This document shows, piece after piece, positions 35,883 through 61,518 of a DNA stretch of 64,000 nt. Source of the stretch: Ornithodoros turicata (taxonomy: Eukaryota > Arthropoda > Arachnida > Ixodida > Argasidae); contig NW_026999403.1 in the NCBI RefSeq assembly GCF_037126465.1, positions 1 through 64,000 on the forward strand, given 5' to 3'. A model generated the notes under the pieces. It was not told where the DNA came from and did no database searches. It saw nothing but the letters and a program-made list of their open reading frames with translations. Positions within the stretch are counted from its first letter, which is position 1, and each line of letters starts with the position of its first letter. A program made the translations under genes and the position numbers.

Positions 35883-35888
35883 GAAAAC
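35883..35888. repeat. Target-site duplication GAAAAC, left copy
   Basis: GAAAAC directly precedes the terminus AGTAGTAAGTACTGACC. The same six bases follow the mirrored terminus at 49,677-49,682. Confidence 0.85.
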
Positions 35889-38800
35889 AGTAGTAAGTAC
35901 TGACCACGCTTATCCGGAAACGCTACAAGGCTTCTGGACGCCATTAATTAGCAATTAGAGCTAATTGGGACCCCCCACATTAATCAGCATCATCCAATGA
36001 GTCATCACACTAATTGGGGAGCGTCTAACTAGTGTCCAGACCACCCTGTGCGTTTCCGGATAAACGTGGTCATAAAAAATAAAAAAATAGATAGAGATAG
36101 AGTGGAGAGAAGGAGTTTAGTTGAAGATCAACGACGCCATCTTGAAGGAACCGGCCCGGAAAGGCCGCTGACCATCGCCGGGCGACGGAGCACAGAGGCA
36201 GGTTGCAAAGCATCCCAGCTATGACCACAAGTTCCGGACATCCTGTGACGTCAGCTGTGACGTCATCATGGCATGTCTGGGCAAGTTAGGACAGCTCTGG
36301 ACATGCAAGGAGAAAAACACTCTTAATACAGAGGCTGGGAAAGCAAGAGTATGCAATCCATCAATAGCTAACAAGAAAAAACAATTAGTTACACAACAAA
36401 TGAGCCCACCAGAACAGGAGCGCAGAACGATGCGACTGCTCCATCCGAGAGGCAGGCAGAGAACTGACTCGTAATGGTTTTTTTTCTCCTGTATAAAGCC
36501 CCGCAGCTGTATCCCCTAGCGGTTACTTTCTCAACTAATCTCACAACAAAATTATTAAGAATCACGCCAGCGCTACTCCCGTTCCCAAGGCAGAAGATGA
36601 TAGAAAATGCCGGGGATGCCCAGTCAACAGCATCCAGCACCCGACGTGCACGGGCACGAAAATCGCAAACAAAGCGGGAACAAAGTTGACGAAAGCATTA
36701 GTTACACAACAAATCACCTCACCACAGCAGGAGCGCAGACCGATGCGACTGCTCTCCGTGACAACCAGCCAGAAACTGAGCGAGCGCGGGGAGCGCACGT
36801 CTGCTTTCCGCGACAGCCGGAGAGAAACTGACTGGGGCGCCGCTCCGCGGCCGCTACGCATACGCGCTCCTAGCGCCCTCTGGGGCGACTACCTCTGAGA
36901 GGCTAAGAGTGAAGAGCATTCCTGCGCCCCCTGCTGGCCATTCTCATTGGTCGTGAGGCTAAGAGAGAAGAGCATTCCTGCGCCCCCTGCTGGCCGTTCT
37001 CATTGGTCGTGACGTCATCCTATTGTCTCAGGGCTACCCTGTTTTTTTCCACTAATGCTCCTTTGGTCAATCTACAATGAAGCCACAGTATGACATCATC
37101 ATGCAGCTGCGTGGCTCAAGGACGCGTACGCTCTAGACAGGGGACATATTATTTATTGAATCATTATCCCAAGATTATTTCCTTTATTCTTCTATAACGA
37201 TTGAATAGGAAACTATTGCAGAAGAGCACCATGCATGAAAGCTGATCGTAGGAATTCCAAACTCTTACTAAATGAGACTTGCAAAAGAACAAAATATCCT
37301 AACACGTAACTCCATCAACGGCAAATAAGAGGACTAGGTACTCAACAAATCAACACAGAGTACGGGTAAACAGGAGCGCAGAACTTAGGGCAGCACTATC
37401 GTCAAGACAACAATGTTCCTTGTCAAAAGAGAAAAATTACAAAACGTCAACACAGGAAAGCATGCATATCGGGGCATGTCAGAACACGTCAGCACAAATT
37501 GTACGACTGCTGGGCAACAGAGGAAAACAAACAAACACTTGAACAGAGTGAAAAAGACACTCACCATCATTTTTCCCGTTCACAGCATTCCCTCATTGTA
37601 AATCCGCTCGTCACAAAATCCACCTGCATCGTCGAACACCATTCACCAGTGACGAACCACACATCCGCACCCCATCAGAGGCAGACAGAACCCCACCGAA
37701 GCTACGCTCTTCCACTGACGGCCAACGCCAGGAGCAGAATTTGCGTGTCGAGACCCGTCAGTGTCCAAGAGAAAAGTGAATCCTTGCGCCCCCTGCAGGC
37801 CGTTCTCATTGGTCGTGACGTCATCCTATTGTCTCAGGGCTACACAGTTTTTTTCCACTAATGCTCCTCTAGACAAGGTCAACCTGAAACAATAGTCTCT
37901 CGGTATGCGGTCATCATGCAGGTGCGTGGCTCAAGGGCGCGTACGCTCTAGACAGGGCACCTGTTATTTATTGAATCACTATCCCTAGATTATTTCCTTT
38001 ATTCTACTATAATGATTGCGTAGGGAACTATTGCAGAAAAACACCATAGACAAGAGGAGATTGTAGCATTTCATTCCCAAAGTCTTACTGTACAGGAAAA
38101 AAAAATGGTTCAGCAAGACATAAAGTCACACACCTGTCCCCCTCGCGGTTACTCTCTGAACTAAATGAATCACAAAATTATTAAGAATAGCTCTACTCCC
38201 ATTCAAGGCAGCACTATCGTCAAGAATATGTCTTGTACAAAAAGAAAAAAACTACACGTAGAAGGAAAGCATGTCAGAACAAGCCCAGGCATGTCAGCAC
38301 ATGTTTGTCAGACAAGGGGGGAAAAAGCAAAAAGAAACAAAGAAGGAAACCAGCATCAAACTATTTCTAAGCACACGCACTCCTCTTATTCAAAAACAGT
38401 GCTCATCATAAATCTGCCCAGGACAATACACACTATTTTTCTATTGCCACACTCAATGGTCACTGGTCAATGCATTGCTACAGACTGCGTGACGTCATCA
38501 CATCCTGTCTGAAGAAGACACCGACAAAGACTCCTATTATTTATTGAATCGCAAGATTATTTCCTTTGTCCTACTCTTAATGACATTGATTCTCTCATTA
38601 AAATTCAACAAAAAAGCACCCCGCATATTAACGATTTTCACCCCAAAGGCTCATCATGGTCATTAGAATTACAGTAAACTGCCACTGCTCTTTTAAAATA
38701 ATAAGTGAGACCACTCAACATCACCTCCAGGCTTATGTAATACGTGACCCTTTCTATGCTCATACATTCGTTGTCTGAGGCTACACCTGCGAGCAAAAAA

Positions 38801-41800
38801 GGCGCGGAAGCCGGGTGGGCAAAGTTCCATTCGCGCATTGCGAGCATAAAGGCGGGAAAGCCTGGGAGCAAAGTTCTATTCGCGCATTCCAAAGCACAAG
38901 ACAGAACGCCTTTACGGGAACACGATAGCATTCCTATACTATATTAATGATTATTGCATTGCAGTTTAGAAAAACTACAACTAAACTATAATTTTAGGAG
39001 CCCATTAAAATTCTACTTTCTATGGAAACTATAATTGCCCTATTACTTGGATCGCTACTAATGAAGCGCTCCAATTTTTTCTCTCTTCCCATTTCAGCCT
39101 TGTCATGCAGGGAAGCAGACTCATATCCAAAATAATTAATTTACACTGAGGGTGCCGTGCTTCAGGAATTCCTATCCTGCGCTCAGATGCAAGCATTTCT
39201 TCACGGATACCTTTAACAGCTGACTTCCTCAACATATCGAACACCCAACAAAATCAAACAAACAATCAGAGAAACCCTCTTCTCAGCTGTACCATGCGAC
39301 TGTCTTCTTCATAAAATCGGTGATCTGAGGAAGAGAGCAGCGAAAAATTGCGCGCACTTGTGCTTGACTTAAAAAAACCTGAAGCATATGCCAATAAACC
39401 AAGAAAAAGACACTCATGTCTGGTATCTGATAGTGCCACATACACAGACGCATTGTCGCAAAGAAAGCACAGGACATGGATACACAAATTTCCTTAGGTG
39501 AGCAGGGAAAAGGCTTAAGACCTCAGGAATAATAGCAGAGTCACTGGACATCGCTACGCGGCTAACACAAGATAACAACAACAAGATAATAGCGGCGGGT
39601 AAAATTGCAACACTGCTAAACAAGCCCCAACATGCCATCATGACGTCGCAAACCAGGAAAAAGAAGCACGCGCGCGCACACAGCAGCTCAGGAATGCACA
39701 AGGAGAGGTGCTTTATAGGAATTTCTACTCCACACACTCAGATACCAGCATTTCTGCGCAAATACCTATAACGGCTGACTTCCTCAACATATCGAGGAAA
39801 GCGAATACTAACACTCAACATATAACAAAAAACAAACAAATTCCATTCTCATGAACTCTCTCCTCTGCCGAGCGGCTTTCTCCTGCTCTACCTGGATGCT
39901 GACTGTTTCCCCTCATCTACATTCTGAGTAAAAGCCGTGAAAGGAGAAAAGAACCGCGAAAAATTACACGCATGTGTGCTCCAATAGCTGTAACTGCAAG
40001 AAACCGTAGCGCACGCCAATACACTGAGAAAAAGACACCTATTTCTACCACCAGATAATTCTTGCATAATGCCACATACAGAGTCGCATTACCCTTGCGT
40101 AAAGAAAGCACAGGACAGGGATACACAAATTTCCTTAGGTGAGCAGGGAAAAGGCTTAAGACCTCAGGTCACCACACATCGCCACGCGGCTAGCACAACA
40201 TGACACCAACAACCTACTAGCAGCGGGAAGAACTGCAACACTGCTAAACAAGACCAGACATGCCACGATGACGTCACAAATCAGGGGAAAAAGCACACGC
40301 ACGCACGCACAGAGGACAACGCTTTAAACACACGGAGCGCTCTGGAATAATCGTAGCGTTACCGCACATCGCTACGAAGCTCAACGTCTAACACAAGACG
40401 GCAGCAACAAGATATTAGCGAAGGGTAAAAATTGCAACACTACTGAACAAGTCTAGACGTGCGACATCGAATGCGAAAACACTGGTGATCGGGGAAAAGG
40501 CCTAAGCCTGCGGCGGATCATCATCATAGAGCATACACAACTTCATTTTTCTATTTTGCGTAAACTAAACGCGGTCTGCTTGGAAAACGACGTACAAATT
40601 TTCTTAGGGAGCAGAGAAATATATAAATTTGTACTCCGTGCTCAGATACCAGCATTTCTGCTCAAAAACCTGCAAAATTAAGCTCTGCTTACTTCGTCAA
40701 GATATCGAACACCCAACAAAATCAAACAAACAACCCCACTTCCACTGGTAGAACACTATTCAGCTTTTACGCAGGAGGCTTTCTTCTACATAAAAAGTAG
40801 AGAAAATAAGAAAAGAGCAGCGAAATATTACACGCACTTTTGCTCGCCATAGCTATAAGAGAAAAAAAATAAATAAAAGAACGACGCACACGCTAATAAA
40901 CTGCGACAAAGACACCCTTTTCTGCTATCAGATAATTATTGCATAATGCTAAATACTCATTTGCATTGGCCCTGCGTGAAGAAAGCACAGGACAGGGATA
41001 CACAATCTATCTTAAGCGAGCGCAGAAAGTCACTTCTACTCGAACAGCTTAATACCATAAAGTCTGAATTTTTGCAAAGAAAATAAAGTCTGAACAGCGC
41101 TACGAAGGTGACAGACACATACTAACAAACAAACAAACACTTCTTCGAGTCTGTATTGTCTTTTAAAAATAACGAAAGCACACATAAAAAAATCAAATCG
41201 GCTAGGTAGCCTACCAGACGTTGCGCCTTAAGTTGGCTGCACGCAATGCGCGAATGCATGCTGTGAAGCCAACTTGCGGTTTTGCTGGATGCACATGAAG
41301 TCCGATTCCAATTGGAAATCGCGCTAAGGACGTGCCAAACGTGGAATTTTCGCAAGATTAATCCCAATACCTGGAATTCTGTTCATTTTAGCGGGAATGC
41401 TGGCGCTTGTGCTCCATTATTCGAAATTTTCGAATATTCGAATTTCTCGATTATCAAATTTTCGAATGCGAATAGGGTTCGAATATCAACAATATTCGAA
41501 CAATATTCGAAATTTCGAATATTCGCACACCTCTAGTGAATACTGACACTCAACGATATATAACAAAAAACAAACAAATTCCATTCTCATGAACTCTCCT
41601 CTGCCGAGCGGCTTTCTCCTGCTCTACCTGGATGCTGACTTTTTCCCCCCTCACCTACATTCTGAGTAAAAGCAGTGACAGAAGAAAAGAACCGCGAAAA
41701 ATTACGCGCATTTGTGTCACAGGACAGGGATACACAAATTTCCTTAAGTGAGCAGGGAAAAGGCTTAAGTCGTACCGCTCGGGAATAATCGGAGAATCAC

Positions 41801-42719
41801 CGCGTATCGCTACGCGGCTAGCGCTTGAACAGCGCTACGAACGTGACAGATACATACTAACAAACAAACAAACAAACAACAGCAGGACCGGCGTCGGGCA
41901 CTCATAAAATACCCTGCCCAAAACAAAGACTTCGCCAGGTTCGCGAGGCAATTCCATTAAAAACGCTCGTCCTATCCTACAGATAGCAATGCAAACGCGA
42001 CTGCCCTTATTTTTTAAACCACTATTTCACGCAATAGTACATAAATGTATCACTCGTGCCACACGAAAAGACAAACACTTACTTGTCAAGTGGGGTCCCA
42101 GCGCGTGCGCGCGCGCGCACACACACAGGCACACACAGACACACACACTAACATTTTCACACTCACAAACACAAAGTCTATTTTCACAACCACATAAATC
42201 CATATTATTCCTCAGGTCAATAATTATCCTGCCATCGTCAAAAGACGGCACAGACATGTATGCTTACGCAAGACAATCGGTCCTCGTTCCGGATGTAATA
42301 GGATATCGTCACTCGGCCGGCGCGAACCAATAAAGAAAGAAAGGAATGCATGTTCGCTACGAAGAAAACGGTGCCGTGCTTCTACGCAGCGATCATTATA
42401 CAGACGCGTAAATGTGAACATCATTCGCTACACACTGTAGCTCTCATCATTTTTAAACCAAACCGTGTTCATAGGTCTTCACTAAATAGGTGAGCCGATA
42501 ATGACTCCAAATAAAATAAAATAAAATAATCATTCCAGCATCGCTGGCTGCAAGCTTGGGTACCCAACAGAGCAGCGCGCTCCTATCAACACGCCTTGGG
42601 CTGACCTTACACACCCGAAGCCTTTTCTGAATACATTCTGCCGGCGCTGGAATAAAAGATTTATCGCGAGGGTACTACGATGTCAGCTCTGTTGCTGTTT
42701 AAGTGATAAAACAGTGCGC
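35889..42719 (+). repeat. Palindrome 2, left arm
   Basis: Mirrors 42,847-49,676 with only about five differences that I noticed: a T-run length near 36,474, and single bases near 37,891, 37,939, 39,478 and 42,069. The arm is built from repeated modules. TGACGTCA recurs at 36,246, 36,258, 37,010, 37,816, 38,490 and 40,269. GCGCCCCCTGC recurs near 36,928, 36,982 and 37,787. The unit GCTAACACAA...TAAAATTGCAACACTGCT...CATGCC recurs near 39,560, 40,190 and 40,390. A TTCGAATATTCGAA-rich block lies at 41,420-41,530 and a CA/CG microsatellite at 42,105-42,150. Confidence 0.93.
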
Positions 42720-42846
42720 CCGAACCGCGAAGCGCGTGCGCGGGCCCGGTCTCGCGGTTTGGACTCGCGACGCGTGCGATTCCCCGCGGCGCGAGCGCAA
42801 CGCGGACCCGTTCTCGCGGTTTGGACGCGCGCGATTGCCCGAGTAA
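42720..42846. repeat. GC-rich spacer of palindrome 2 with a tandem duplication
   Basis: 127 bp, strongly GC-rich and CpG-rich, unlike the arms. It contains two direct copies of a ~40-bp unit with the core TCTCGCGGTTTGGAC (42,750 and 42,811). It is flanked by the arm ends CAGTGCGC and GCGCACTG. Confidence 0.85.
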
Positions 42847-45800
42847 GCGCACTGTTTTATCACTTAAACAGCAACAGAGCTGACATCGTAGTACCCTCGC
42901 GATAAATCTTTTATTCCAGCGCCGGCAGAATGTATTCAGAAAAGGCTTCGGGTGTGTAAGGTCAGCCCAAGGCGTGTTGATAGGAGCGCGCTGCTCTGTT
43001 GGGTACCCAAGCTTGCAGCCAGCGATGCTGGAATGATTATTTTATTTTATTTTATTTGGAGTCATTATCGGCTCACCTATTTAGTGAAGACCTATGAACA
43101 CGGTTTGGTTTAAAAATGATGAGAGCTACAGTGTGTAGCGAATGATGTTCACATTTACGCGTCTGTATAATGATCGCTGCGTAGAAGCACGGCACCGTTT
43201 TCTTCGTAGCGAACATGCATTCCTTTCTTTCTTTATTGGTTCGCGCCGGCCGAGTGACGATATCCTATTACATCCGGAACGAGGACCGATTGTCTTGCGT
43301 AAGCATACATGTCTGTGCCGTCTTTTGACGATGGCAGGATAATTATTGACCTGAGGAATAATATGGATTTATGTGGTTGTGAAAATAGACTTTGTGTTTG
43401 TGAGTGTGAAAATGTTAGTGTGTGTGTCTGTGTGTGCCTGTGTGTGTGCGCGCGCGCGCACGCGCTGGGACCCCACTTGACAAGTAAGTGTTTGCCTTTT
43501 CGTGTGGCACGAGTGATACATTTATGTACTATTGCGTGAAATAGTGGTTTAAAAAATAAGGGCAGTCGCGTTTGCATTGCTATCTGTAGGATAGGACGAG
43601 CGTTTTTAATGGAATTGCCTCGCGAACCTGGCGAAGTCTTTGTTTTGGGCAGGGTATTTTATGAGTGCCCGACGCCGGTCCTGCTGTTGTTTGTTTGTTT
43701 GTTTGTTAGTATGTATCTGTCACGTTCGTAGCGCTGTTCAAGCGCTAGCCGCGTAGCGATACGCGGTGATTCTCCGATTATTCCCGAGCGGTACGACTTA
43801 AGCCTTTTCCCTGCTCACTTAAGGAAATTTGTGTATCCCTGTCCTGTGACACAAATGCGCGTAATTTTTCGCGGTTCTTTTCTTCTGTCACTGCTTTTAC
43901 TCAGAATGTAGGTGAGGGGGGAAAAAGTCAGCATCCAGGTAGAGCAGGAGAAAGCCGCTCGGCAGAGGAGAGTTCATGAGAATGGAATTTGTTTGTTTTT
44001 TGTTATATATCGTTGAGTGTCAGTATTCACTAGAGGTGTGCGAATATTCGAAATTTCGAATATTGTTCGAATATTGTTGATATTCGAACCCTATTCGCAT
44101 TCGAAAATTTGATAATCGAGAAATTCGAATATTCGAAAATTTCGAATAATGGAGCACAAGCGCCAGCATTCCCGCTAAAATGAACAGAATTCCAGGTATT
44201 GGGATTAATCTTGCGAAAATTCCACGTTTGGCACGTCCTTAGCGCGATTTCCAATTGGAATCGGACTTCATGTGCATCCAGCAAAACCGCAAGTTGGCTT
44301 CACAGCATGCATTCGCGCATTGCGTGCAGCCAACTTAAGGCGCAACGTCTGGTAGGCTACCTAGCCGATTTGATTTTTTTATGTGTGCTTTCGTTATTTT
44401 TAAAAGACAATACAGACTCGAAGAAGTGTTTGTTTGTTTGTTAGTATGTGTCTGTCACCTTCGTAGCGCTGTTCAGACTTTATTTTCTTTGCAAAAATTC
44501 AGACTTTATGGTATTAAGCTGTTCGAGTAGAAGTGACTTTCTGCGCTCGCTTAAGATAGATTGTGTATCCCTGTCCTGTGCTTTCTTCACGCAGGGCCAA
44601 TGCAAATGAGTATTTAGCATTATGCAATAATTATCTGATAGCAGAAAAGGGTGTCTTTGTCGCAGTTTATTAGCGTGTGCGTCGTTCTTTTATTTATTTT
44701 TTTTCTCTTATAGCTATGGCGAGCAAAAGTGCGTGTAATATTTCGCTGCTCTTTTCTTATTTTCTCTACTTTTTATGTAGAAGAAAGCCTCCTGCGTAAA
44801 AGCTGAATAGTGTTCTACCAGTGGAAGTGGGGTTGTTTGTTTGATTTTGTTGGGTGTTCGATATCTTGACGAAGTAAGCAGAGCTTAATTTTGCAGGTTT
44901 TTGAGCAGAAATGCTGGTATCTGAGCACGGAGTACAAATTTATATATTTCTCTGCTCCCTAAGAAAATTTGTACGTCGTTTTCCAAGCAGACCGCGTTTA
45001 GTTTACGCAAAATAGAAAAATGAAGTTGTGTATGCTCTATGATGATGATCCGCCGCAGGCTTAGGCCTTTTCCCCGATCACCAGTGTTTTCGCATTCGAT
45101 GTCGCACGTCTAGACTTGTTCAGTAGTGTTGCAATTTTTACCCTTCGCTAATATCTTGTTGCTGCCGTCTTGTGTTAGACGTTGAGCTTCGTAGCGATGT
45201 GCGGTAACGCTACGATTATTCCAGAGCGCTCCGTGTGTTTAAAGCGTTGTCCTCTGTGCGTGCGTGCGTGTGCTTTTTCCCCTGATTTGTGACGTCATCG
45301 TGGCATGTCTGGTCTTGTTTAGCAGTGTTGCAGTTCTTCCCGCTGCTAGTAGGTTGTTGGTGTCATGTTGTGCTAGCCGCGTGGCGATGTGTGGTGACCT
45401 GAGGTCTTAAGCCTTTTCCCTGCTCACCTAAGGAAATTTGTGTATCCCTGTCCTGTGCTTTCTTTACGCAAGGGTAATGCGACTCTGTATGTGGCATTAT
45501 GCAAGAATTATCTGGTGGTAGAAATAGGTGTCTTTTTCTCAGTGTATTGGCGTGCGCTACGGTTTCTTGCAGTTACAGCTATTGGAGCACACATGCGTGT
45601 AATTTTTCGCGGTTCTTTTCTCCTTTCACGGCTTTTACTCAGAATGTAGATGAGGGGAAACAGTCAGCATCCAGGTAGAGCAGGAGAAAGCCGCTCGGCA
45701 GAGGAGAGAGTTCATGAGAATGGAATTTGTTTGTTTTTTGTTATATGTTGAGTGTTAGTATTCGCTTTCCTCGATATGTTGAGGAAGTCAGCCGTTATAG

Positions 45801-48800
45801 GTATTTGCGCAGAAATGCTGGTATCTGAGTGTGTGGAGTAGAAATTCCTATAAAGCACCTCTCCTTGTGCATTCCTGAGCTGCTGTGTGCGCGCGCGTGC
45901 TTCTTTTTCCTGGTTTGCGACGTCATGATGGCATGTTGGGGCTTGTTTAGCAGTGTTGCAATTTTACCCGCCGCTATTATCTTGTTGTTGTTATCTTGTG
46001 TTAGCCGCGTAGCGATGTCCAGTGACTCTGCTATTATTCCTGAGGTCTTAAGCCTTTTCCCTGCTCACCTAAGGAAATTTGTGTATCCCTGTCCTGTGCT
46101 TTCTTTGCGACAATGCGTCTGTGTATGTGGCACTATCAGATACCAGACATGAGTGTCTTTTTCTTGGTTTATTGGCATATGCTTCAGGTTTTTTTAAGTC
46201 AAGCACAAGTGCGCGCAATTTTTCGCTGCTCTCTTCCTCAGATCACCGATTTTATGAAGAAGACAGTCGCATGGTACAGCTGAGAAGAGGGTTTCTCTGA
46301 TTGTTTGTTTGATTTTGTTGGGTGTTCGATATGTTGAGGAAGTCAGCTGTTAAAGGTATCCGTGAAGAAATGCTTGCATCTGAGCGCAGGATAGGAATTC
46401 CTGAAGCACGGCACCCTCAGTGTAAATTAATTATTTTGGATATGAGTCTGCTTCCCTGCATGACAAGGCTGAAATGGGAAGAGAGAAAAAATTGGAGCGC
46501 TTCATTAGTAGCGATCCAAGTAATAGGGCAATTATAGTTTCCATAGAAAGTAGAATTTTAATGGGCTCCTAAAATTATAGTTTAGTTGTAGTTTTTCTAA
46601 ACTGCAATGCAATAATCATTAATATAGTATAGGAATGCTATCGTGTTCCCGTAAAGGCGTTCTGTCTTGTGCTTTGGAATGCGCGAATAGAACTTTGCTC
46701 CCAGGCTTTCCCGCCTTTATGCTCGCAATGCGCGAATGGAACTTTGCCCACCCGGCTTCCGCGCCTTTTTTGCTCGCAGGTGTAGCCTCAGACAACGAAT
46801 GTATGAGCATAGAAAGGGTCACGTATTACATAAGCCTGGAGGTGATGTTGAGTGGTCTCACTTATTATTTTAAAAGAGCAGTGGCAGTTTACTGTAATTC
46901 TAATGACCATGATGAGCCTTTGGGGTGAAAATCGTTAATATGCGGGGTGCTTTTTTGTTGAATTTTAATGAGAGAATCAATGTCATTAAGAGTAGGACAA
47001 AGGAAATAATCTTGCGATTCAATAAATAATAGGAGTCTTTGTCGGTGTCTTCTTCAGACAGGATGTGATGACGTCACGCAGTCTGTAGCAATGCATTGAC
47101 CAGTGACCATTGAGTGTGGCAATAGAAAAATAGTGTGTATTGTCCTGGGCAGATTTATGATGAGCACTGTTTTTGAATAAGAGGAGTGCGTGTGCTTAGA
47201 AATAGTTTGATGCTGGTTTCCTTCTTTGTTTCTTTTTGCTTTTTCCCCCCTTGTCTGACAAACATGTGCTGACATGCCTGGGCTTGTTCTGACATGCTTT
47301 CCTTCTACGTGTAGTTTTTTTCTTTTTGTACAAGACATATTCTTGACGATAGTGCTGCCTTGAATGGGAGTAGAGCTATTCTTAATAATTTTGTGATTCA
47401 TTTAGTTCAGAGAGTAACCGCGAGGGGGACAGGTGTGTGACTTTATGTCTTGCTGAACCATTTTTTTTTCCTGTACAGTAAGACTTTGGGAATGAAATGC
47501 TACAATCTCCTCTTGTCTATGGTGTTTTTCTGCAATAGTTCCCTACGCAATCATTATAGTAGAATAAAGGAAATAATCTAGGGATAGTGATTCAATAAAT
47601 AACAGGTGCCCTGTCTAGAGCGTACGCGTCCTTGAGCCACGCACCTGCATGATGACCGCATACCGAGAGAATATTGTTTCAGGTTGACCTTGTCTAGAGG
47701 AGCATTAGTGGAAAAAAACTGTGTAGCCCTGAGACAATAGGATGACGTCACGACCAATGAGAACGGCCTGCAGGGGGCGCAAGGATTCACTTTTCTCTTG
47801 GACACTGACGGGTCTCGACACGCAAATTCTGCTCCTGGCGTTGGCCGTCAGTGGAAGAGCGTAGCTTCGGTGGGGTTCTGTCTGCCTCTGATGGGGTGCG
47901 GATGTGTGGTTCGTCACTGGTGAATGGTGTTCGACGATGCAGGTGGATTTTGTGACGAGCGGATTTACAATGAGGGAATGCTGTGAACGGGAAAAATGAT
48001 GGTGAGTGTCTTTTTCACTCTGTTCAAGTGTTTGTTTGTTTTCCTCTGTTGCCCAGCAGTCGTACAATTTGTGCTGACGTGTTCTGACATGCCCCGATAT
48101 GCATGCTTTCCTGTGTTGACGTTTTGTAATTTTTCTCTTTTGACAAGGAACATTGTTGTCTTGACGATAGTGCTGCCCTAAGTTCTGCGCTCCTGTTTAC
48201 CCGTACTCTGTGTTGATTTGTTGAGTACCTAGTCCTCTTATTTGCCGTTGATGGAGTTACGTGTTAGGATATTTTGTTCTTTTGCAAGTCTCATTTAGTA
48301 AGAGTTTGGAATTCCTACGATCAGCTTTCATGCATGGTGCTCTTCTGCAATAGTTTCCTATTCAATCGTTATAGAAGAATAAAGGAAATAATCTTGGGAT
48401 AGTGATTCAATAAATAATATGTCCCCTGTCTAGAGCGTACGCGTCCTTGAGCCACGCAGCTGCATGATGATGTCATACTGTGGCTTCATTGTAGATTGAC
48501 CAAAGGAGCATTAGTGGAAAAAAACAGGGTAGCCCTGAGACAATAGGATGACGTCACGACCAATGAGAACGGCCAGCAGGGGGCGCAGGAATGCTCTTCT
48601 CTCTTAGCCTCACGACCAATGAGAATGGCCAGCAGGGGGCGCAGGAATGCTCTTCACTCTTAGCCTCTCAGAGGTAGTCGCCCCAGAGGGCGCTAGGAGC
48701 GCGTATGCGTAGCGGCCGCGGAGCGGCGCCCCAGTCAGTTTCTCTCCGGCTGTCGCGGAAAGCAGACGTGCGCTCCCCGCGCTCGCTCAGTTTCTGGCTG

Positions 48801-49676
48801 GTTGTCACGGAGAGCAGTCGCATCGGTCTGCGCTCCTGCTGTGGTGAGGTGATTTGTTGTGTAACTAATGCTTTCGTCAACTTTGTTCCCGCTTTGTTTG
48901 CGATTTTCGTGCCCGTGCACGTCGGGTGCTGGATGCTGTTGACTGGGCATCCCCGGCATTTTCTATCATCTTCTGCCTTGGGAACGGGAGTAGCGCTGGC
49001 GTGATTCTTAATAATTTTGTTGTGAGATTAGTTGAGAAAGTAACCGCTAGGGGATACAGCTGCGGGGCTTTATACAGGAGAAAAAAACCATTACGAGTCA
49101 GTTCTCTGCCTGCCTCTCGGATGGAGCAGTCGCATCGTTCTGCGCTCCTGTTCTGGTGGGCTCATTTGTTGTGTAACTAATTGTTTTTTCTTGTTAGCTA
49201 TTGATGGATTGCATACTCTTGCTTTCCCAGCCTCTGTATTAAGAGTGTTTTTCTCCTTGCATGTCCAGAGCTGTCCTAACTTGCCCAGACATGCCATGAT
49301 GACGTCACAGCTGACGTCACAGGATGTCCGGAACTTGTGGTCATAGCTGGGATGCTTTGCAACCTGCCTCTGTGCTCCGTCGCCCGGCGATGGTCAGCGG
49401 CCTTTCCGGGCCGGTTCCTTCAAGATGGCGTCGTTGATCTTCAACTAAACTCCTTCTCTCCACTCTATCTCTATCTATTTTTTTATTTTTTATGACCACG
49501 TTTATCCGGAAACGCACAGGGTGGTCTGGACACTAGTTAGACGCTCCCCAATTAGTGTGATGACTCATTGGATGATGCTGATTAATGTGGGGGGTCCCAA
49601 TTAGCTCTAATTGCTAATTAATGGCGTCCAGAAGCCTTGTAGCGTTTCCGGATAAGCGTGGTCAGTACTTACTACT
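42847..49676 (-). repeat. Palindrome 2, right arm
   Basis: Inverse of the left arm, ending ...GGTCAGTACTTACTACT at 49,676. All long frames in it are mirrored by frames in the left arm and have no motif support. Confidence 0.93.
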
Positions 49677-49682
49677 GAAAAC
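49677..49682. repeat. Target-site duplication GAAAAC, right copy
   Basis: Immediately follows the right terminus and is identical to 35,883-35,888. Confidence 0.85.
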
Positions 49683-51837: not shown

Positions 51838-53135
51838 AGTAGTAAGTACTGACCAACTAAACCCACAACGCGGAAACACACAACTGGCCCTAAACAAGAT
51901 TTAATTAGCAGTTAGAGTTAATTGGGACCCCCCACAGTTATCAGCACCCTCCAAGGTGTCACCACACTAATTGGGGAGCATCTAACTCGTGTCCAGACCA
52001 GTTGTGTGTTTCTGGATAATCATGGTCATAAAAATGAAAAAAAAAACAGATAGAAATAGAGCGGAGAGAAACAATTTGTTCAAAAATCAACAACGCCGTG
52101 GCGAAGAAACCGTTCTGGAACGCCCGAGTGACCAGTGCCCGCCATGTTGCTTCTTGACGTCACGTAGTTCCAGAGATCGACGACAGGTGGCCACTTAGTT
52201 GCAAGGCATCACACCAGATGGCGCCACCATCATAGCTGTATGCGAGAAAGACAGAGAACAACAGGATACTAGCGACAGGTAAAATTGCAACACTGCTCAA
52301 CAAGTGTAGGCATGCGAGAGCGCGGAGAAAAAGCCTAACCAGTACAGCAAACGGAGAAAACGTTACACATAGGAGAAAGGCTTAAGGCGGTCAACTAGGC
52401 CTAACCACAGCGTCACTGCACAACGCTACGAAATTGAACAGCTAACACAAGCCAACTACAAAACGCTAGCCACACAACGCTAAAAATGCGTCAACACGGA
52501 GAAAGTGGCTTGGTACGGGTCACTGCTAAAAAAGTCTAAACATGAGCATACAGGGAATATCCGTTATGGCAAACATATGAGAAAAGGCTTAACACGAGTG
52601 CAGTAAAACAACGCGCAAACATCGAGCACGGCAAATCACTCACCTTTTCTCCGGCGGCGACGGTGCGTCCGATCCCGACGCCAGTGAAGGCTCAACTGAA
52701 GCAGCACGGGGATGGCGGAGCGACCGACCGCATGTCTTCACTCCGCTAGAGCCAAAGCGCGAATGATATGAGCGTCTCGCCGCGGCAGCTATGCGTGAGC
52801 GCTCCTAGCGCCCTCTGCGCCAGCATCCAGCGGTCATCTCCTCACGGACGCTCCCCGTTTCGGTTTCGCTCTCTCTCCTTTCACTGTGCGCACTGCTAGG
52901 GGCAATGAGTTGCTTCTCCATTTCGTCTTTCCGCTTCTCCTAGCGGTCTCTGCGCCACCGCTGCGCACGCCAGCCCCATGCTGGCGCTCCCGTTTCGCTC
53001 TTGCTATCTCCTTTTACTGCATGCGTGCACTCCTAGCGGCAGCGGATTGCTTCTCCGTTTCGGCATCGCTCTCGTTCCTTTGAGCGTGTTTATTTGAAAA
53101 CGCTGTATAAAGACAGCGCGCACCGCGCTCGCGTC
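51838..53135 (+). repeat. Polinton left terminal inverted repeat
   Basis: The inner ~200 bp (52,936-53,135) is the near-perfect inverse of 63,690-63,888; they share AGCGGATTGCTTCTCCGTTT and CATGCTGGCGCTCCCG. Going outward, the left copy has an extra ~135-bp degenerate tandem duplication (about 52,800-52,935) absent on the right. Outside this, weaker similarity resumes (GCTATGCGTG / GCTACGCATG, CGGGGAT). A TGACGTCA lies at 52,155. Confidence 0.88.
53106..53112 (+). promoter_or_regulatory. TATA box at the inner edge of the left TIR
   Basis: TATAAAG within CGCTGTATAAAGACAGCGCG, 45 bp before the first gene's ATG (53,151). The same sequence, inverted, lies at 63,713-63,719 in the right TIR, so each TIR carries an inward-facing promoter. 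Confidence 0.65.
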
Positions 53136-53150
53136 CTCATTCTGACCGAT

Positions 53151-53426
53151 ATGTGGAAATACATGTGTGGTTTATTCTCCTGCGTTTCTCGTTGACAAGG
53201 AAAGACGAAAAACGAAGAACTTCGCAAATTTATTCGCGGCCTCGTGGAGGAAGCCATCCAAGTCCAGCGCCTGGAATGGTTGCAAGCACGTCAAGAAATG
53301 TGGCAGGACAGGATGAAGACGCTCGACCGCATCTTAGCGGACAGACTGATGGAAAAGAAGTCCAACTTTAGTCTGAATAATCTGTATTGGGAACGCAGTT
53401 CCGGTCTAGAGAACGGCAACGTGTAA
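53151..53426 (+). pseudogene. Small helical Polinton protein with early stop
   Basis: The ATG just inside the left TIR, 45 bp after a TATA box, opens 91 codons that are interrupted by TGA at codon 15 (53,193). Downstream the frame reads NEELRKFIRGLVEEAIQVQR and then a charged helical run (EWLQARQEMWQDRMKTL), probably a coiled coil. The stop overlaps a polyadenylation signal (TAAATAAA). No enzymatic motif; not recognised as a named family. A start downstream of the TGA cannot be excluded, but no ATG lies before 53,300. Confidence 0.6.
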
Positions 53427-53496
53427 ATAAAAGATATGCATTTCACTACGAGTCACAGTCTCTTCTTTTTCTTTGTGCAATGTGTAAATACGCAAC

Positions 53497-54132
53497 ATGT
53501 CTTCCCCCAAACCTTTTCGTTTCCGTCATCCTTTTTGCTGTATCTTAAGTGGCCCCTTCATGTGCGGCAAATCTACGTTTGTTGCGAACTTGCTGAGGAA
53601 TCGGAACGACGTCGTGGACAGGCCTCTGTCACAAATATTGTACATGCAGAAATATGCTTCGCCGAGCATGCAGGATGAATTTGGGGATTCTGTAAAATTT
53701 ACCAAGGAGTTACCCCGAGAGTGGGACACGTCGCGCGCTATGCTCATTGTCGTCGATGATCACATGATCGATGCTGATTCCTTGAAGGAGGTGACCGATC
53801 TTTTCACGCGGGGTTTACACCACGCCAACGCCTCGATCTTCTTACTCGTACAAAACATCTTTTTCAGCGGTAGCCATTTTAGAGCTATATCCTACAACAC
53901 CAGTTACGTTGTCCTGTGGCACACCGTGCACAGCGTCCACCAGATGGAACATTTCGGGCAATAAATATTTGGCAGAAAAAGAGTGGAGTATTTTCTGGAC
54001 GCATATAAACAAGCAATGTAGTTGCCCCACGCCTATTTACTCGTGGATCTTAACAACTATACGCACGAGGATCACAGGCTGGGTAGCAATATCTTTCCGG
54101 GAGAACGTCACTATATCTACGCTCCGAAATGA
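53497..54132 (+). pseudogene. A32-like DNA-packaging ATPase, two in-frame stops
   Basis: FtsK/HerA-type ATPases of this group pump DNA into capsids. The ATG at 53,497 opens a 211-codon frame. Walker A is at about residues 22-30 (GPFMCGKST) and Walker B at about 84-90 (AMLIVVDDHM), followed by a DLFTRGLHHANASIFLLVQN stretch typical of the sensor region. TAA (53,962-53,964) and TAG (54,019-54,021) interrupt the C-terminal fifth. The frame then continues through AYLLVDLNNYTHED and GERHYIYAPK to a natural TGA at 54,130. The first stop overlaps AATAAA. The ATG of the next gene overlaps the final TGA (ATGA). Confidence 0.9.
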
Positions 54133-54473
54133 ATCTCCATCCTCACCTCACTTTACTCAAAGTGCTCTCTACTCTACCCAGTTCGAGCCATCGCGACGTC
54201 TTGAGACGTTCTTCCTCGTCCGACATGAAACACCCCTCCGAAATTTGTCTCAATGTATTGAATGGAAAGGTGGCTCTGGCTCCAGACACGTCCGCAGATT
54301 TGAAAAAGCACAAACGCTTCTTACGTCGGCTCGCCTATAAAAAGATTCACAAGAATCTGCAGCGTTTGAAGCGTTATCTGTCTCAGCAGCAAGGACAGGG
54401 CGGTCTTTCGTCAGTGGTTCCTCTCCTACTTTCCGCCGTGTTGAACCTCTTCGCCTATGGCCAAGAGAATTGA
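54129..54473 (+). CDS. Small basic Polinton virion-type protein with hydrophobic C-terminus
   Basis: The start overlaps the ATPase stop (ATGA), as in compact viral operon-like blocks. 114 codons, apparently unbroken. The middle is strongly basic (DLKKHKRFLRRLAYKKIHKN). Near the end there is a GQGG followed by a hydrophobic helix (LSSVVPLLLSAVLNLF). A basic segment followed by Gly-Gly and a hydrophobic tail is a layout known for small core or minor virion proteins processed by adenain-type proteases. The assignment rests on layout and position only. It is one of the few frames in this block without a visible lesion. Confidence 0.55.
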   Translation: MNLHPHLTLLKVLSTLPSSSHRDVLRRSSSSDMKHPSEICLNVLNGKVALAPDTSADLKKHKRFLRRLAYKKIHKNLQRLKRYLSQQQGQGGLSSVVPLLLSAVLNLFAYGQEN

Positions 54474-54872
54474 AGTGACCGGCTCCTCCATCGGGAACAT
54501 TCTTTGCTCGAAGGAGGGTGACGACGTCAAAGTGAAACTCATACTGCAAGCACTGTATCGCATACTGAAGCAGTACGGATTTGACCCCTACGACAATAGA
54601 AACAAGGAGTCCGATGCGAGAAATGACTTTGACTGTTCGCTACTCTCTCCAGAGGTGGACGAAGAGGAAGCGGAAAGGGTCGTCTCGGAATTACAGAAGA
54701 TCATTTCCTGGGATCGCGAGGGTTGTGTCTCTGGTCGGACAAGCCCATCCGGCACTCCTCCGTTTACGAACTCGCCAATTATTTGTTGCAACGTAAGACG
54801 GGAAAGAAACCTTCCTGGTTCCCCAAAGTCTCGAAACTGTTGCGCCTGATTTCTCTGCCCAGATCTCGTTAG
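54457..54872 (+). pseudogene. Unknown Polinton protein, frameshifted
   Basis: The ATG overlaps the preceding gene by 17 bp. The first part (MAKRIEVTGSSIGNILCSK; acidic DEEEAERVVSELQKIISW) is followed, after a shift near 54,720, by SVYELANYLLQRKTGKKPSW and LLRLISLPRSR, ending in TAG at 54,870. The protein would be about 138 residues, first acidic and then basic. Position between a core-like protein and integrase suggests a virion or accessory role. I do not recognise the family. Confidence 0.55.
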
Positions 54873-54977
54873 CCTCAACAGCAGCAGCAAGCCTCCATCA
54901 CGTGGACGACCTATGGAGTGATATGAGAAACCAGAGTGTGGTTTGGGGGGAGTGGAGCGCTATAGAAAAGCGCGTCA
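54873..54977. other. Short intergenic stretch in the Polinton
   Basis: About 100 bp without a supported frame between the unknown protein and the integrase remnant. Confidence 0.5.
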
Positions 54978-55801
54978 CATGAGCAAAAACAAGGCTCTCG
55001 CCATTCTCAGAAAGCTGGACGCATCTCCCGCTTTCAGCGCACACTCCCGCTAGAGACGAAGCGCCCCGACGAAATGAAAAGGGCCATGATAAGACTTTTT
55101 CGAGGAGGTAATGTGCCTACACGCATCTTTTGCGACAGAGGAGGGGAATTCTACAACAAGATCGTCAAGGAACACCTGTCACGAAAGAAGGTCCACACGT
55201 ATTCCACCTTCTCTCCCATAATCAAGGCATCGCAGGCAGAATGGGTGATACGCACTTTACGCGACAGAATATTCTGCTATTTTAGAGTGACCAGAAAATA
55301 CCACTTCGTTTCCGCGCTTCCCAAGATCGTGCGCGACTACAACAACACCAAACACAGGACGTTGGGCATCAGCCCGTCCGAAGTCACACCCAAAAACGAA
55401 TTGGAGCTGTTTAATAAGATAAATGCGAGCCCGTCATACCCTCCGTGAAAAAGAAGCTCAAAGTGGGGGATAAAGTGAGGGTCCTACTACACAGAAAAAT
55501 GTTTTCATAAGAGCTCGGAAGGGAGTTGGTTGCCTCAGATTTTCACCGTCTCCCGCCTGAGAGACACCTCCCCTCCCGTCGTGCACCTGGAAGATTACCG
55601 GGGTAAGGAAGTGGACGGATCTTTCTACCACGAGGAGGTACTCGTCATAACCCGAGACGCCAATCAGCCTTTGCCAAAAACGAAAGTGCTGAGAACAAGA
55701 ATGTGAATGGTCACAGCTTCTCCTTGGTTCGCTGGTTCGGTTACGACAAAGAACACGACAGTTGGGTTCTGAGCAGTGACGTGGTCAAGATTGGGAAATG
55801 A
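54978..55801 (+). pseudogene. Polinton integrase with chromodomain, internally deleted and frameshifted
   Basis: A retroviral-type DDE integrase inserts the element and gives 6-bp target duplications. A short N-terminal piece (54,978-55,046, KALAILRKLDASPAF) runs straight into the second half of the catalytic core (from 55,074): the second Asp in IFCDRGGEFYNK and the Glu in QAEWVIRTLRDRI, spaced as usual. The zinc finger and first catalytic Asp are missing. Further on come KLKVGDKVRVLLHRKMF (stop after it), then in another frame LPQIFTVSRLRDTSPP and KEVDGSFYHEEVLVI. Finally a chromodomain (SLVRWFGYDKEHDSWVLS) ends in TGA at 55,799. The stop overlaps the next ATG (ATGA). Confidence 0.9.
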
Positions 55802-56951
55802 CGTCAGACATCTACGTCCACCTCCTCTCGAGCAACAAGTTTTTAAATATCCGATACTAAAGGCAAGATGCGAAAATCGAGGTTTCTTTGAGGACACGGT
55901 CGAAGCCTGGAGAACTTTTCGTGTCACCTTGGATCTCGAGAGGGATTTGGGAAAAGCCCTTTCGGAATTTAACGTTTCTTTCGCGTACAATAAATCGCGA
56001 TACGACTTCGTCTTACCCGTAGACGTGAAAGCCGTGGAATTGGACACTCGGCTCGCACCGGCGCTCGACGTTTCGCTAGCATCCCGCGATGCAGGTCGTG
56101 CGGTGAAGCCTCCCAAATTGAGTGAACGCGAAGCCACCTCCATATTGTTGGAGCACGCCGAACCCGTCGCTTTCGTCACTTTGAATTCAGAAACCACGTC
56201 CCCATGTAACGCACTCAACAAGTATTTCCAGACGCACAAGCTGGGCGCCTCGGTAGAATTCGTGGATAACGTCTACTCTCTGAAAATGCTGAAGGGGCTG
56301 CATGTACCGGAACCCTTTCTCAAGCTGCTACATCTCACACCCGTTGAGGGACACGGAGAAACGCTACGCATCTCTCTCCCCGTAGCGTGCCAATTTTCTT
56401 TCACGATCAAGACGAAAATTCCTCGATCTTTGCAAGTACATCTGCCTCCTGGCTATTATGCGACGCTGCATGCACTTCTGGATGCCATTAACCAGGGCGT
56501 AGGCGAACGCGCGCGCTTCAGCTTTCGACGGAACCGAACAGAAATGTAAAATTCGGCTTTCCTAGGACACCACCACCTTAAGACTTTCCGAGTACCTGGC
56601 CGTGCTTTTGGGTTTCGAATCGCGCACCGAGTTCACAGGGGAGGAGGATGCCACGAGCTCCGTCGAGGTACTCTTGGAACCCCCGTTTCACAACGTAATC
56701 GTCTACACGGATATTCTGGAACCCACGTACGTGAGGATAGGGAAAAAACGATATTAAAAATACTGCCCTTTTGTTACGAGAAAGACGAGCACGTCGTCAC
56801 CTACACGTTAGATAACGTCCAGTATTTTAACCTGTCTCAATTCGAAATTCCCTCAGAGACGATTGTTCTCGCGGACGAAACAAGAAGACGTTTACCATTG
56901 CGGTCCAAAGGTAGAACCAATTTAACGTTGCATTTCAAATATGTACCGTAA
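55798..56951 (+). pseudogene. Minor capsid (penton-like, single jelly-roll) protein, frameshifted
   Basis: The ATG overlaps the integrase stop. The opening MTSDIYVHLLSSNK is in one frame (to about 55,857). The main body, about 240 codons, is in another (55,86x-56,549; VTLDLERDLGKALSEFNVSF, SLQVHLPPGYYATLHALLDA). Then come TTLRLSEYLAVLLGFESR and FHNVIVYTDILEP after another shift, and a last piece ending HFKYVP with TAA at 56,949. The PPGYY motif and the conserved order point to the Polinton minor capsid protein. At least three frameshifts rule out a functional product. Confidence 0.8.
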
Positions 56952-57333
56952 TTTTCCCCAAATAATTCCTGTGCACATGGAAGCCGTTTTCCAACTTGGG
57001 GGCGATGTGCTGAGCAACATATCCAAGTTTATCGTTCCCATCTGGCAAGAAATAAAACCAGTCGCCAAGAAAACGTTGAAGCGGTTGGCGCGGAATTTGG
57101 CCGACGGCGAAGGAATATGGCGTGTAGTGAAAAAGACTGCCATAGCAACGGGGCGAGACGTGCTGGATTCCATGGAGGGCTCTGGAAAGAAACGTCACAA
57201 AGGACAACAACCTGCACGACACACCTACAGATGTCTTTGGTTCGTAGTGAGGGTCACACATCCGCTGTGCACTCCAGCCATTATGACGTCAACAAAAGAC
57301 AAAAACAGTCGCAATGGTCGCCGCTCTGTTTGA
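56941..57333 (+). CDS. pVI-like Polinton minor virion protein
   Basis: The ATG overlaps the end of the minor capsid gene. The first ~95 codons start MYRNFPQIIPVHMEAVFQLG and show a Gly-Gly-like site (QLGG), an amphipathic helix (NISKFIVPIWQEIKPVAKKT) and a basic tail (GKKRHKGQQ). This is the layout of the adenovirus pVI-type, membrane-active capsid lining proteins found in Polintons. The last ~35 codons overlap the major capsid start in another frame and may not belong. No lesion is evident in the first part. Confidence 0.6.
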   Translation: MYRNFPQIIPVHMEAVFQLGGDVLSNISKFIVPIWQEIKPVAKKTLKRLARNLADGEGIWRVVKKTAIATGRDVLDSMEGSGKKRHKGQQPARHTYRCLWFVVRVTHPLCTPAIMTSTKDKNSRNGRRSV

Positions 57334-57892
57334 CGAGTGACGTGATGATATTCGATCCCCCTTCCATTCAATACGGCGTGGGAGGTACTTCTTACCAACA
57401 CTTTTATCCGGTCTACAGGGTAAATAATACAGTGATCGAATTTACTATTCAAAATTCACAAAGGGCACACTTGCAACGCTACGACAGCTTCGTGTCTTTG
57501 ACCGTGCGCATTGTTTGCGAGAACAGAGAAGAAATGGATGAGAAAGATGTCATTTTCCCAGTAAACCATCTGTTGAGTGGCGTGTGTAACATGGTCACCG
57601 TTTATGGGAATAACAAGCTTGTCAGTTCCAACGAGTTATACGGCTAGAGGAGTATTTTGGACGCCGTGCTTCATTCCACGTCCCTGGCTCAAGAGTCCCT
57701 GGCGCGGCTGGACTCTTGGTCGAGGGCGACGAACATTTAACAGACGACTACGACGTCTCGTCTCGCTGTCCGAAACAACGTTACGAAGTGACGAAGGGTG
57801 GAAAGTACTTTAACCTGGTCGGACAGATCAATACCGACCTGTTCCAGCAGCCGCGTCTGATGGTACCTGCGGTCGGAATTCGTACTCGTTTT
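57231..57892 (+). pseudogene. Major capsid protein (double jelly-roll), N-terminal part only, broken
   Basis: The ATG at 57,231 starts MSLVRSEGHTSAVHSSHYDV; further motifs are VMIFDPPSIQYGVGG and FPVNHLLSGVCNMVTVYGNN, the conserved N-terminal region of Polinton major capsid proteins. TAG at 57,645 interrupts the frame, which goes on (LDAVLHSTSLAQESLARLDS). It then shifts to EHLTDDYDVSSRC and GKYFNLVGQINTDLFQQPRL. The homology ends near 57,890 after roughly 220 residues, well under half of a normal major capsid protein, and protease sequence follows at once. A deletion therefore removed the second jelly roll. Confidence 0.82.
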
Positions 57893-57912
57893 CCTGTGAA
57901 ACAACGACGCGA

Positions 57913-58208
57913 GGCCAGCACTGGGTGCTCTACCTGAAAAACTACGACGGGTCTGCCGTGTTTTTTCGACAGTTACGGACTCCCCCTAATGAAGAAAACC
58001 TTTGAAGGACTTTACTAGTGGACGAGTATAACGGCAAAATGTATTCAGCCACCTTTTTCACCTTACTGCGTGCTTTTTTGTATCTAGGGTAGCCAGGCTC
58101 ATGTCGAAATGCTACAGCTTGAAAACTTGTGTATCCATGTTTTCCTGTAACCTCGAAGCGAATGACGAAACGATAAAACGTCTCCTCGTGAGCGAACTCG
58201 CTTTGTAA
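57913..58208 (+). pseudogene. Adenain-like cysteine protease, N-terminally deleted and frameshifted
   Basis: Adenain matures virion proteins. The fragment begins GQHWVLYLKNYDGS, with the His-Trp of the catalytic histidine region. An extra T in a T run near 57,960 shifts the frame, and FFDSYGLPLMKKTFEGLY follows with the DSYG motif. The catalytic Cys region cannot be read confidently. A C-terminal piece (SMFSCNLEANDETIKRLL) in yet another frame ends in TAA at 58,206. The N-terminal third is missing because the fragment is fused directly to the truncated capsid gene. Confidence 0.7.
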
Positions 58209-58279
58209 AATAGTCTATTTTTACACGACATACATAAGATGCTTCCGAGACGATCTTCCAATGTGCTGACCCGACGCTC

Positions 58280-58585
58280 TTAGCTGGTCACCGTGACTTC
58301 AAGAGAAGTGTGGAGAAGCCAGTAGCGATGGATGATGGGTCGGTTGAAACCCGCGTTTATGAGACACGGGTCAACTGCCTCCCCTCGTCTATACTTTTCC
58401 AACAGCTCGAGCTTGTAATCTACGAAACGCTTCATTTTCTTTGTAATCTTCCTACTAGCAGTGTACAGACGTAAGCGTATCGTCTTGAGAATAGAGCGAA
58501 AGTCACCCTCACAGCCATCGCCGTGAATATAACTCGTGAGGTTGAATATAACTCCCGATACATTCGTGTTGCACAAAGGTTGCAA
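58280..58585 (-). CDS. Unknown Polinton minus-strand protein
   Basis: An open frame of about 100 codons reads toward the protease gene. It includes SYIHGDGCEGDFRSILKTIR, a basic helix (ASRKITKKMKRFVDYKLELL) and DPCLINAGFNRPIIHRYW. It lacks an ATG at its start (TTG). A second frame upstream, from the ATG at about 58,603, overlaps it, so a frameshift near the 5' end is likely. The amino-acid pattern looks coding, but I do not recognise it. Position opposite the structural block suggests an accessory gene transcribed from the other side. Confidence 0.4.
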   Translation of the reverse strand: MQPLCNTNVSGVIFNLTSYIHGDGCEGDFRSILKTIRLRLYTASRKITKKMKRFVDYKLELLEKYRRGEAVDPCLINAGFNRPIIHRYWLLHTSLEVTVTS

Positions 58586-58743
58586 ACCTCTGCTCGGGTA
58601 TCATGACTGAGACGGAGTGAGAGTATACACACCCTTGTTTTATCTATCATGAGAGGTTACATGAGTCAGCCTCCAGGTTTGGTTTTGTAGCCGGGAATAC
58701 AGCCCAAATATGGACGGAGGCTCGAGGGGGGGGGAATATATAT

Positions 58744-58956
58744 TTATTGACGGAGGCTCGAGTCTAACCAATGGTTGGGGTTTCTCGACCAGAGTCCACC
58801 ATAACGACAGGTGCTCAGCTGATCACCGATCCACAAGAAGAAAGTCTTCGGAGGAGGCTTGAGGGTGAGGACCAGGGGTAGATCTCCTGTCGGTAGCCAT
58901 TCGTAATCTGCATTAAAGGAGCGTAAGAAATACGTGTTTTTATTTGATACACACAC
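58744..58956 (-). pseudogene. Unknown Polinton minus-strand fragment
   Basis: About 70 codons without ATG, reading NTYFLRSFNADYEWLPTGDL, FFLWIGDQLSTCRYGGLW and NPNHWLDSSLRQ. The stop TAA overlaps AATAAA (CAATAAATATATA), the same economy seen in other genes of this element. An in-frame TGA lies just upstream of the fragment. The neighbouring frame holds an ATG (59,006), so the 5' end is probably shifted. A 20-bp direct repeat (GACGGAGGCTCGAG) flanks the 3' end. Family unknown. Confidence 0.35.
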
Positions 58957-59006
58957 GTACAGCCTTCTTCAGTCACAGAGTGACACTTATGGCCCATCTT
59001 CTCCAT

Positions 59007-60047: not shown

Positions 60048-60384
60048 CACCTTGTCCACCATCCCCCGAATCAAGCCTGCTGCGACAATGATGCACACGT
60101 TCCAGACAATTTTCGAGCTTCTGGTCCGTATTCGCCCCCTTTTGGTGAGTATTTCTCTATCTCTTCTTGTTCTGTTCTGTTCTTCTCTTCTGTTCCTTTC
60201 TAATACCTGACATTTTTCTGCAGGTTTCACCGTGACGCACATTGTGCAACTTTTCTTTCAACTGATACCCGGTTCGGGGGGCGATGTACCCCGTTTGGAT
60301 ATGGAAACGTTTTTGCAAATGTTCGCACTAGTAGGCGAAGAGGAGATGGAAACGGCAATGACAGAAGTGCTCATGGCGCGCTAA
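60048..60384 (+). CDS. Possible two-exon Polinton gene fragment
   Basis: A 79-bp GT-AG intron is plausible: donor TTTG|GTGAGT at 60,145, pyrimidine-rich tract, acceptor TTTTTCTGCAG|GT at 60,223. The second exon then reads FTVTHIVQLFFQLIP and DMETFLQMFALVGEEEMETA to TAA at 60,382. The joined frame has no ATG upstream before TAG at 60,045. The only ATG (60,089) is in a frame that stops right after the splice. The gene is either broken, or the start is elsewhere. Family unknown. Confidence 0.3.
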
Positions 60385-60697: not shown

Positions 60698-60705
60698 TAT
60701 AAAAG
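60698..60705 (+). promoter_or_regulatory. TATA box
   Basis: TATAAAAG, followed about 35 and 58 bp later by ATGs at 60,733 and 60,756, and by a donor AAG|GTAAGT at 60,780 with an acceptor CCGTAG at 60,840. The spliced frames are very short (about 27-34 codons), so the transcript is only suggested. Confidence 0.5.
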
Positions 60706-61515: not shown

Positions 61516-61518
61516 GAC

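Follow-up and report, generated by a model that had tools for sequence, protein, structure and literature searches.

The 64,000-nt stretch of DNA analysed here (the window; Ornithodoros turicata, contig NW_026999403.1, positions 1 to 64,000) contains a gene-less palindrome of 13.8 kb with ends of Polinton type, an older palindrome from the same family (e2) and a decayed coding Polinton. The parts of the 13.8-kb palindrome are as follows.

35883..35888: left target-site duplication GAAAAC, a direct repeat exactly at the border
35889..42719 (+): left arm, 6,831 nt, starting AGTAGTAAGTACTGACC
35901..36072 (+): terminal hairpin in the left arm, its outer stem formed by arm nt ~13-52 and ~143-184
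36490..36498 (+): inward-pointing TGTATAAAG, TATA-like, in the left arm
42720..42846 (no strand): asymmetric spacer, 127 nt, 72% G+C
42847..49676 (-): right arm, 6,830 nt, an inverted copy of the left arm
49068..49076 (-): inward-pointing TGTATAAAG in the right arm
about 49493-49664: mirror-image terminal hairpin of the right arm
49677..49682: right target-site duplication GAAAAC, a direct repeat exactly at the border

Structure and Content of the Palindrome

An earlier note on this DNA had described a near-perfect palindrome whose symmetry stops at GAAAAC on both borders and which holds no coding gene, and each part of that description stands. Alignment of the two arms gives 6,832 columns, one of which is the symmetric last base of the target-site duplication, with five mismatches and one homopolymer indel. 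Just outside the palindrome, inverted symmetry amounts to 29% over 106 nt, and when positions 35001-50500 were shuffled (n = 5) the longest exact inverted repeat was only 14-16 nt. Internal repeats, nearly all direct, make up 49% of the left arm. The element shares with the foldback class its long inverted repeats, a core that is short or missing, and internally repetitive arms.

Within the tests made, the palindrome has no coding gene. When the 55 open reading frames (ORFs; at least 55 amino acids) of one arm were compared with Pfam, there was a single match (Bacteriocin_IId, E 0.0007), judged to be due to chance. The longest arm ORF has 163 amino acids, lacks a methionine and has no protein relatives at E 0.001. 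It is also present in e2 and was rejected as a gene: the ratio of nonsynonymous to synonymous rates is about 0.4 on few sites, but there is no methionine and the other frames are equally conserved. No packaging ATPase or capsid gene was recognised in the palindrome, and none of its ORFs encodes a retroviral-like integrase, hence it is at most a non-autonomous member of the Polintons. No RNA families were detected at gathering scores, and the joined flanks of the palindrome contain no reading frame indicating a target gene. Pieces of the Polinton subterminal region (nt 420-624) are present again at arm nt 3648-3736 and 4319-4576.

Borders and Target-Site Duplications

GAAAAC is embedded in an 8-bp direct match, TGAAAACA: the T and A beside it are identical to the bases with which the element ends and begins. 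In the window alone, the 6-bp and 8-bp registers are therefore ambiguous; the 6-bp register is fixed by 15 other copies with the same border. These copies were obtained by searching the assembly of O. turicata with the first 600 nt of the element, which yielded 3,517 candidates, 40 of them scored. The scored end matches include 40 at 98% or more, and one further short piece matches at 93%. Pairing left with right ends accounts for 32 of these and gives 16 copies, the window's included; the other eight are unpaired. The paired copies are 9,278-15,298 bp long.

A perfect 6-bp duplication flanks all 16 paired copies, with 15 different 6-mers; CGCGTG is common to copies C10 and C88, whose flanks are different. 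The end motif AGTAGT...ACTACT (AGTAGTAAGTAC...GTACTTACTACT) is found in all 16, except that one left end starts with G. The two ends of a copy are alike (at least 99%) over the fetched 1.5 kb in 15 of 16; in the remaining copy, C3_48430, a stretch is missing from one arm and the arms agree on both sides of the gap. Two copies found through their centres (C130 687312-700910 and C1 80433207-80446821), which have a second end type, AGTAGTAATGTATCAGC, were checked as well and carry the perfect duplications GGCTTT and TATATT, respectively, the latter with two other possible registers. Further copies with the same borders and different 6-bp duplications (16 of 16 pairs and two more), which the earlier note had suggested looking for, are thus present in the genome.

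Vertebrate Mavericks have the end motif (AGT)2//(ACT)2 and a 6-bp duplication (PMC8097293; here and below, citations refer to the parts available of each paper). The assignment of the ends to the Polinton type agrees with this description, and coding Polintons with the same ends are present in the tick genome.

A Palindromic Family with a Common Centre

The proposal that the element represents a class of giant foldback, inverted-repeat-only Polinton derivatives gains substance from this amplified, gene-less family. When the middle 3 kb was taken from 15 other copies, 14 were inverted-symmetric around or near the midpoint. The 127-nt spacer is found by its arm borders in seven other copies (for six of them another, overlapping alignment gives 121 nt) and by sequence match to the window spacer in three more. 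With the inner arm and spacer as query, 1,418 candidates were obtained, 40 of which were scored, and all 40 match at 98-100%. At least 600 nt of inverted arm lies directly beside the spacer in 31 of these 40 (window included), with a short piece in two and none in seven. Family totals beyond the scored matches consist of unconfirmed candidates.

The axis of symmetry is not the same throughout. Copy C6_19988 has no spacer and its axis is at arm nt ~6357, and the distance between the arms is 1.1 kb in C10, 554 nt in C1_142639 and 151 nt in C1_89437. The older palindrome e2 (~10794-21502), which was absent from the earlier note, belongs to the same family and contains the following parts.

10794..14919 (+): e2 left arm; the start AGTAGTAA at 10794 is only probable
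14920..14975: e2 spacer, 56 nt; arm nt 4487-4547 of the 13.8-kb element are the homologue of its left part
14976..15885 (-): inner part of the e2 right arm
20117..21502 (-): outer part of the e2 right arm, truncated at 21502

Because the left part of its spacer is homologous to an internal part of the arm, e2 has its axis elsewhere than the 13.8-kb element; its turning point corresponds by homology to arm nt ~4547. From these differing axes it follows that the axis has shifted several times in the family, either through new folding or through central deletion. A candidate right end of e2 at 22173 (TTACTACT) is consistent with chance and was not retained. The right arm of e2 is interrupted by a Gypsy-type long terminal repeat (LTR) retrotransposon (15886-20116), which has 121-bp LTRs of 98.3% identity, a 5-bp duplication AAGTC, and ORFs for reverse transcriptase/RNaseH and integrase. 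A small imperfect inverted repeat resembling a foldback miniature inverted-repeat transposable element (21634-21908) lies close to the break of the e2 right arm.

Concerted Arms

About 1.3 kb of both ends was compared in the 16 copies. Divergence between the arms of one copy is 0-0.62%, and in 14 of the 16 a copy's own arms are closer to each other than to the nearest other copy. In a tree, 15 of the 16 copies have their two arms as sisters (four of these pairs are without a support value; the lowest value given is 0.67). The 42 left/right differences fall in 39 columns, only two of which are hit in more than one copy. Substitutions that are private to one copy and yet present in both its arms number 44, compared with 43 sites at which one arm only differs.

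When e2 is compared with the 13.8-kb element over 1,253 columns, both e2 arms differ together at 133 sites, and one arm only at 28 and 29 sites; identity is 95.1% between the two e2 arms and 86.8% between these and the 13.8-kb element. Since left/right differences are rarely common to copies and the arms of a copy are sisters, these alignments show arms re-equalised between insertions in the lineage and, at least in e2, drifting apart after insertion. The concerted arms, together with the copy number and the terminal hairpin and coding palindrome described below, go beyond the earlier note.

Coding Relatives

The terminal 17-mer of the palindrome occurs at three sites in the window: the two palindrome ends and position 51838, where a decayed coding Polinton starts.

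51838..64000 (+): decayed coding Polinton that shares the 17-nt end; its right end runs past the window
53488-53961: ATPase ORF, 87% identical to a coding copy elsewhere in the genome
54966-55445: integrase ORF, 87% identical to a coding copy elsewhere in the genome
55773-56546: capsid-region ORF

The inverted right end of this Polinton, from 63686 outward, matches over 203 nt at 97% and then over about 100 nt at about 70%. The 9-mer TGTATAAAG occurs four times in the window, pointing inward each time (36490, 49068-, 53104 and 63713-), once in each arm and once at each end of the coding Polinton. The ORFs of the decayed Polinton gave no convincing family match of their own, and they were identified through a coding copy on contig C4. 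This copy starts AGTAGTAAGTACTGACCACG, and over about the first 200 nt it is 88% identical to the arm end. A 2.5-kb piece of the copy has coding sequence for an ATPase (top Pfam matches Pox_A32, E 0.0026, and Adeno_IVa2, E 0.045) and for an integrase core (E 3.3e-7) with a chromodomain (E 1.5e-4), all of these matches being just below the curated cut-offs.

The ATPase piece has no protein relatives in a database search, and PDB searches with the integrase, ATPase and capsid pieces returned one chance match (E 0.92). Viral and prokaryote collections searched with the ends and the Polinton proteins gave no matches. The capsid-region ORF has one database protein match, 85% identical, from O. turicata (contig C4). 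The predicted fold of this gene, P0001, is unusably poor (predicted local distance difference test score, pLDDT, 33). Its 98 scored matches in the genome (of 3,027 candidates) are at 97-100%, and 93 of them are without a stop; with so many near-identical open copies, the Polinton family looks recently active in O. turicata.

Terminal Hairpin and a Coding Palindrome

The first 195 nt of the element, folded as single-stranded DNA, reach -41.2 kcal/mol, compared with a shuffle mean of -17.4 (z -7.4). Covariation was tested at 23 base pairs in 14 ends (11 distinct), hand-chosen to span the end types. In this set 94.5% of cells are paired and both sides have changed in 15 of the 23 pairs; none of 500 shuffles reaches any of the five measures used, and slid controls are 29-40% paired. 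Three very different stem sequences (the main, C130 and C90 types) are each self-complementary. Concerted stems can come from fold-back copying itself, and selection is not necessarily implied.

Reading through the 98 coding matches revealed a mirror-image pair, only a few kilobases apart, at C2:91899392-91913699, a coding palindrome seen at its ends, centre and gene only. The gene lies 4,067 nt from each end, the outer 1,300 nt are 100% identical, and the centre is 95.8% self-inverse over 1.3 kb. Its axis is the terminal hairpin unit (element nt 13-184), and the mirror symmetry runs into the stem. Because the flanks are GAT repeats, its duplication is uninformative. A strand that had primed itself at its terminal hairpin would leave a structure of this kind. 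A further outward-facing coding pair, 16.6 kb apart, is found on C7.

Interpretation and Alternatives

At the level of sequence, the comparisons demonstrate a family, its ends and 6-bp duplications, a common palindromic centre, a coding relative and re-equalising of arms between insertions. The window element is a member of an amplified, gene-less palindromic family of Polinton/Maverick type in O. turicata, whose arms are probably equalised via a folded strand and which probably uses an integrase in trans. A foldback element of the Polinton superfamily that is without genes, as this palindrome is, has to be non-autonomous. The Polinton integrase would insert the gene-less elements in trans. 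In an extrachromosomal stage, one arm would be copied or corrected from the other within a folded-back single strand, with the first arm serving as template for the second or with mismatches in the hairpin being repaired, and each new insertion would thereby begin with identical arms. The Polinton terminal hairpin may be one point at which the strand folds and primes itself, as the coding palindrome suggests.

Several observations weigh against this interpretation. The fold-back route is inferred, and no strand intermediate has been seen. The spacer and centre of the window palindrome form a hairpin no better than shuffles (z -0.33), so that hairpin priming fits the coding palindrome better than the window palindrome. 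No Polinton genes were recognised in arm nt 1,000-6,831. Four of the 16 copies are below 12.7 kb, the size of the smallest intact vertebrate Maverick, and a packaging size is thus not clearly kept. Copy C88 lacks palindromic symmetry in its middle 3 kb; copies C7_6279 and C1_108665 each have a neighbour nearer than their own other arm; and one arm pair of the 16 is not sister in the tree.

The main rival is gene conversion by the host between arms within the chromosome rather than in a mobile stage, the palindrome being otherwise a plain cut-and-paste foldback. Large palindromes are known to undergo conversion, and sister arms would be expected in that case as well. This explanation is weakened by the decay of e2, whose older arms have drifted to 95% with one-arm changes even on the two sides, implying that e2 was not kept equal once inserted; among the other copies, arm divergence varies and the differences are mostly private. 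We therefore regard it as unlikely. Less probable still is terminal-repeat growth by recombination, of the Galileo/Foldback type, with loss of the core in one founder followed by ordinary transposition. Such growth may well account for how the arms lengthened, given the large share of internal repeats within them, and both Galileo and Tetris have long, internally repeated terminal inverted repeats (TIRs) and gene-less copies (PMC3573991, PMC4079207). On its own it leaves unexplained the concerted arms, the several axes and the coding palindrome.

Two other explanations can hardly be right. Foldback artefacts do exist in long reads (PMC12870357), and a missed adapter or a foldback read might produce a palindrome in an assembly; against this, the 18 copies examined all lie in different places with different flanks, and each is bounded on both sides by a perfect 6-bp duplication. 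Equally implausible is membership of a different superfamily, for example a Mutator-like foldback with an 8-bp duplication and a chance likeness to Polinton ends. In its favour, the window taken by itself has an 8-bp repeat, and Mutator is said to account for most foldbacks (PMC4079207). Yet a 6-bp duplication, not one of 8-10 bp, fits 18 of 18 copies, and the ends and first 200 nt are common to coding Polintons.

The favoured interpretation, a Polinton-type family equalised via a folded strand, can be carried further, although more tentatively and as a possibility rather than an expectation. The elements may be satellites of a putative protein-primed Polinton virus of O. turicata and may multiply as a self-complementary, palindromic linear genome. 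Only one arm would be inherited as information, the other would be rewritten from it by fold-back copying in each cycle, the covarying hairpins would prime, and the Polinton integrase would fix many copies in the germ line.

Comparison with Known Systems

Adenovirus symmetric recombinants are mirror-image genomes derived from one end of a linear genome, and parvoviruses replicate through self-priming terminal hairpins; unlike the tick elements, both are infectious viruses without an amplified germ-line family. The nearest described molecular form found is that of the snapback genomes of adeno-associated virus, which are self-complementary molecules with one genome end mirrored, symmetric or looped, but which belong to parvovirus particles and are not integrated elements of a tick (PMC8235507).

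The tick palindrome resembles vertebrate Polintons/Mavericks in its (AGT)2//(ACT)2 ends and perfect 6-bp duplication, and at 13.8 kb the window copy is within the 12.7-24.6 kb of intact vertebrate Mavericks. It differs in being gene-less and wholly palindromic, with arms of 6.8 kb, whereas the TIRs of intact vertebrate Mavericks are 46-1,447 bp (PMC8097293). With Galileo 2T/2RT (PMC3573991) and Tetris (PMC4079207) it shares the lack of genes, long and internally repetitive inverted repeats, and presumed mobilisation by an autonomous relative. Galileo is of P type, with 7-bp duplications and longest TIRs of 1,260 bp (PMC3573991); Tetris is probably of Mutator type, with 8-10-bp duplications and longest TIRs of 1,735 bp (PMC4079207). 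The available parts of these two papers do not mention concerted arms for either element. For Polinton-like viruses without an integrase, resident Polinton integrases have been proposed to act in trans, as suggested here, although those viruses carry virus genes (PMC4642659).

Among the titles and abstract beginnings that were covered (subscription papers and Repbase being outside this scope), no palindromic or foldback Polinton was found. Polinton replication has so far been deduced from sequence. If the interpretation given above is true, Polintons have a gene-less satellite class in which the palindromic form is itself the replicating unit, and in the concerted arms a fold-back step on a single strand during Polinton replication would have left a fossil trace. 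Arm-to-arm divergence would then provide a separate clock for each insertion.

Other Features of the Window

A tandem satellite occupies positions 1-8533, with 25 copies of a ~342-bp unit that are 82-100%, and mostly more than 94%, identical to reference copies. In the aligned region 9372-35763, two of 52 ORFs match the phospholipase A2 family Phospholip_A2_2 of Pfam (best E 3.4e-11). An ORF of a Mariner-type transposase lies at 30385-31278 (-) (Transposase_1, E 4.9e-19). A dispersed repeat, 84-92% alike, is found both near the palindrome (34179-34832) and inside the decayed Polinton (62061-63335).

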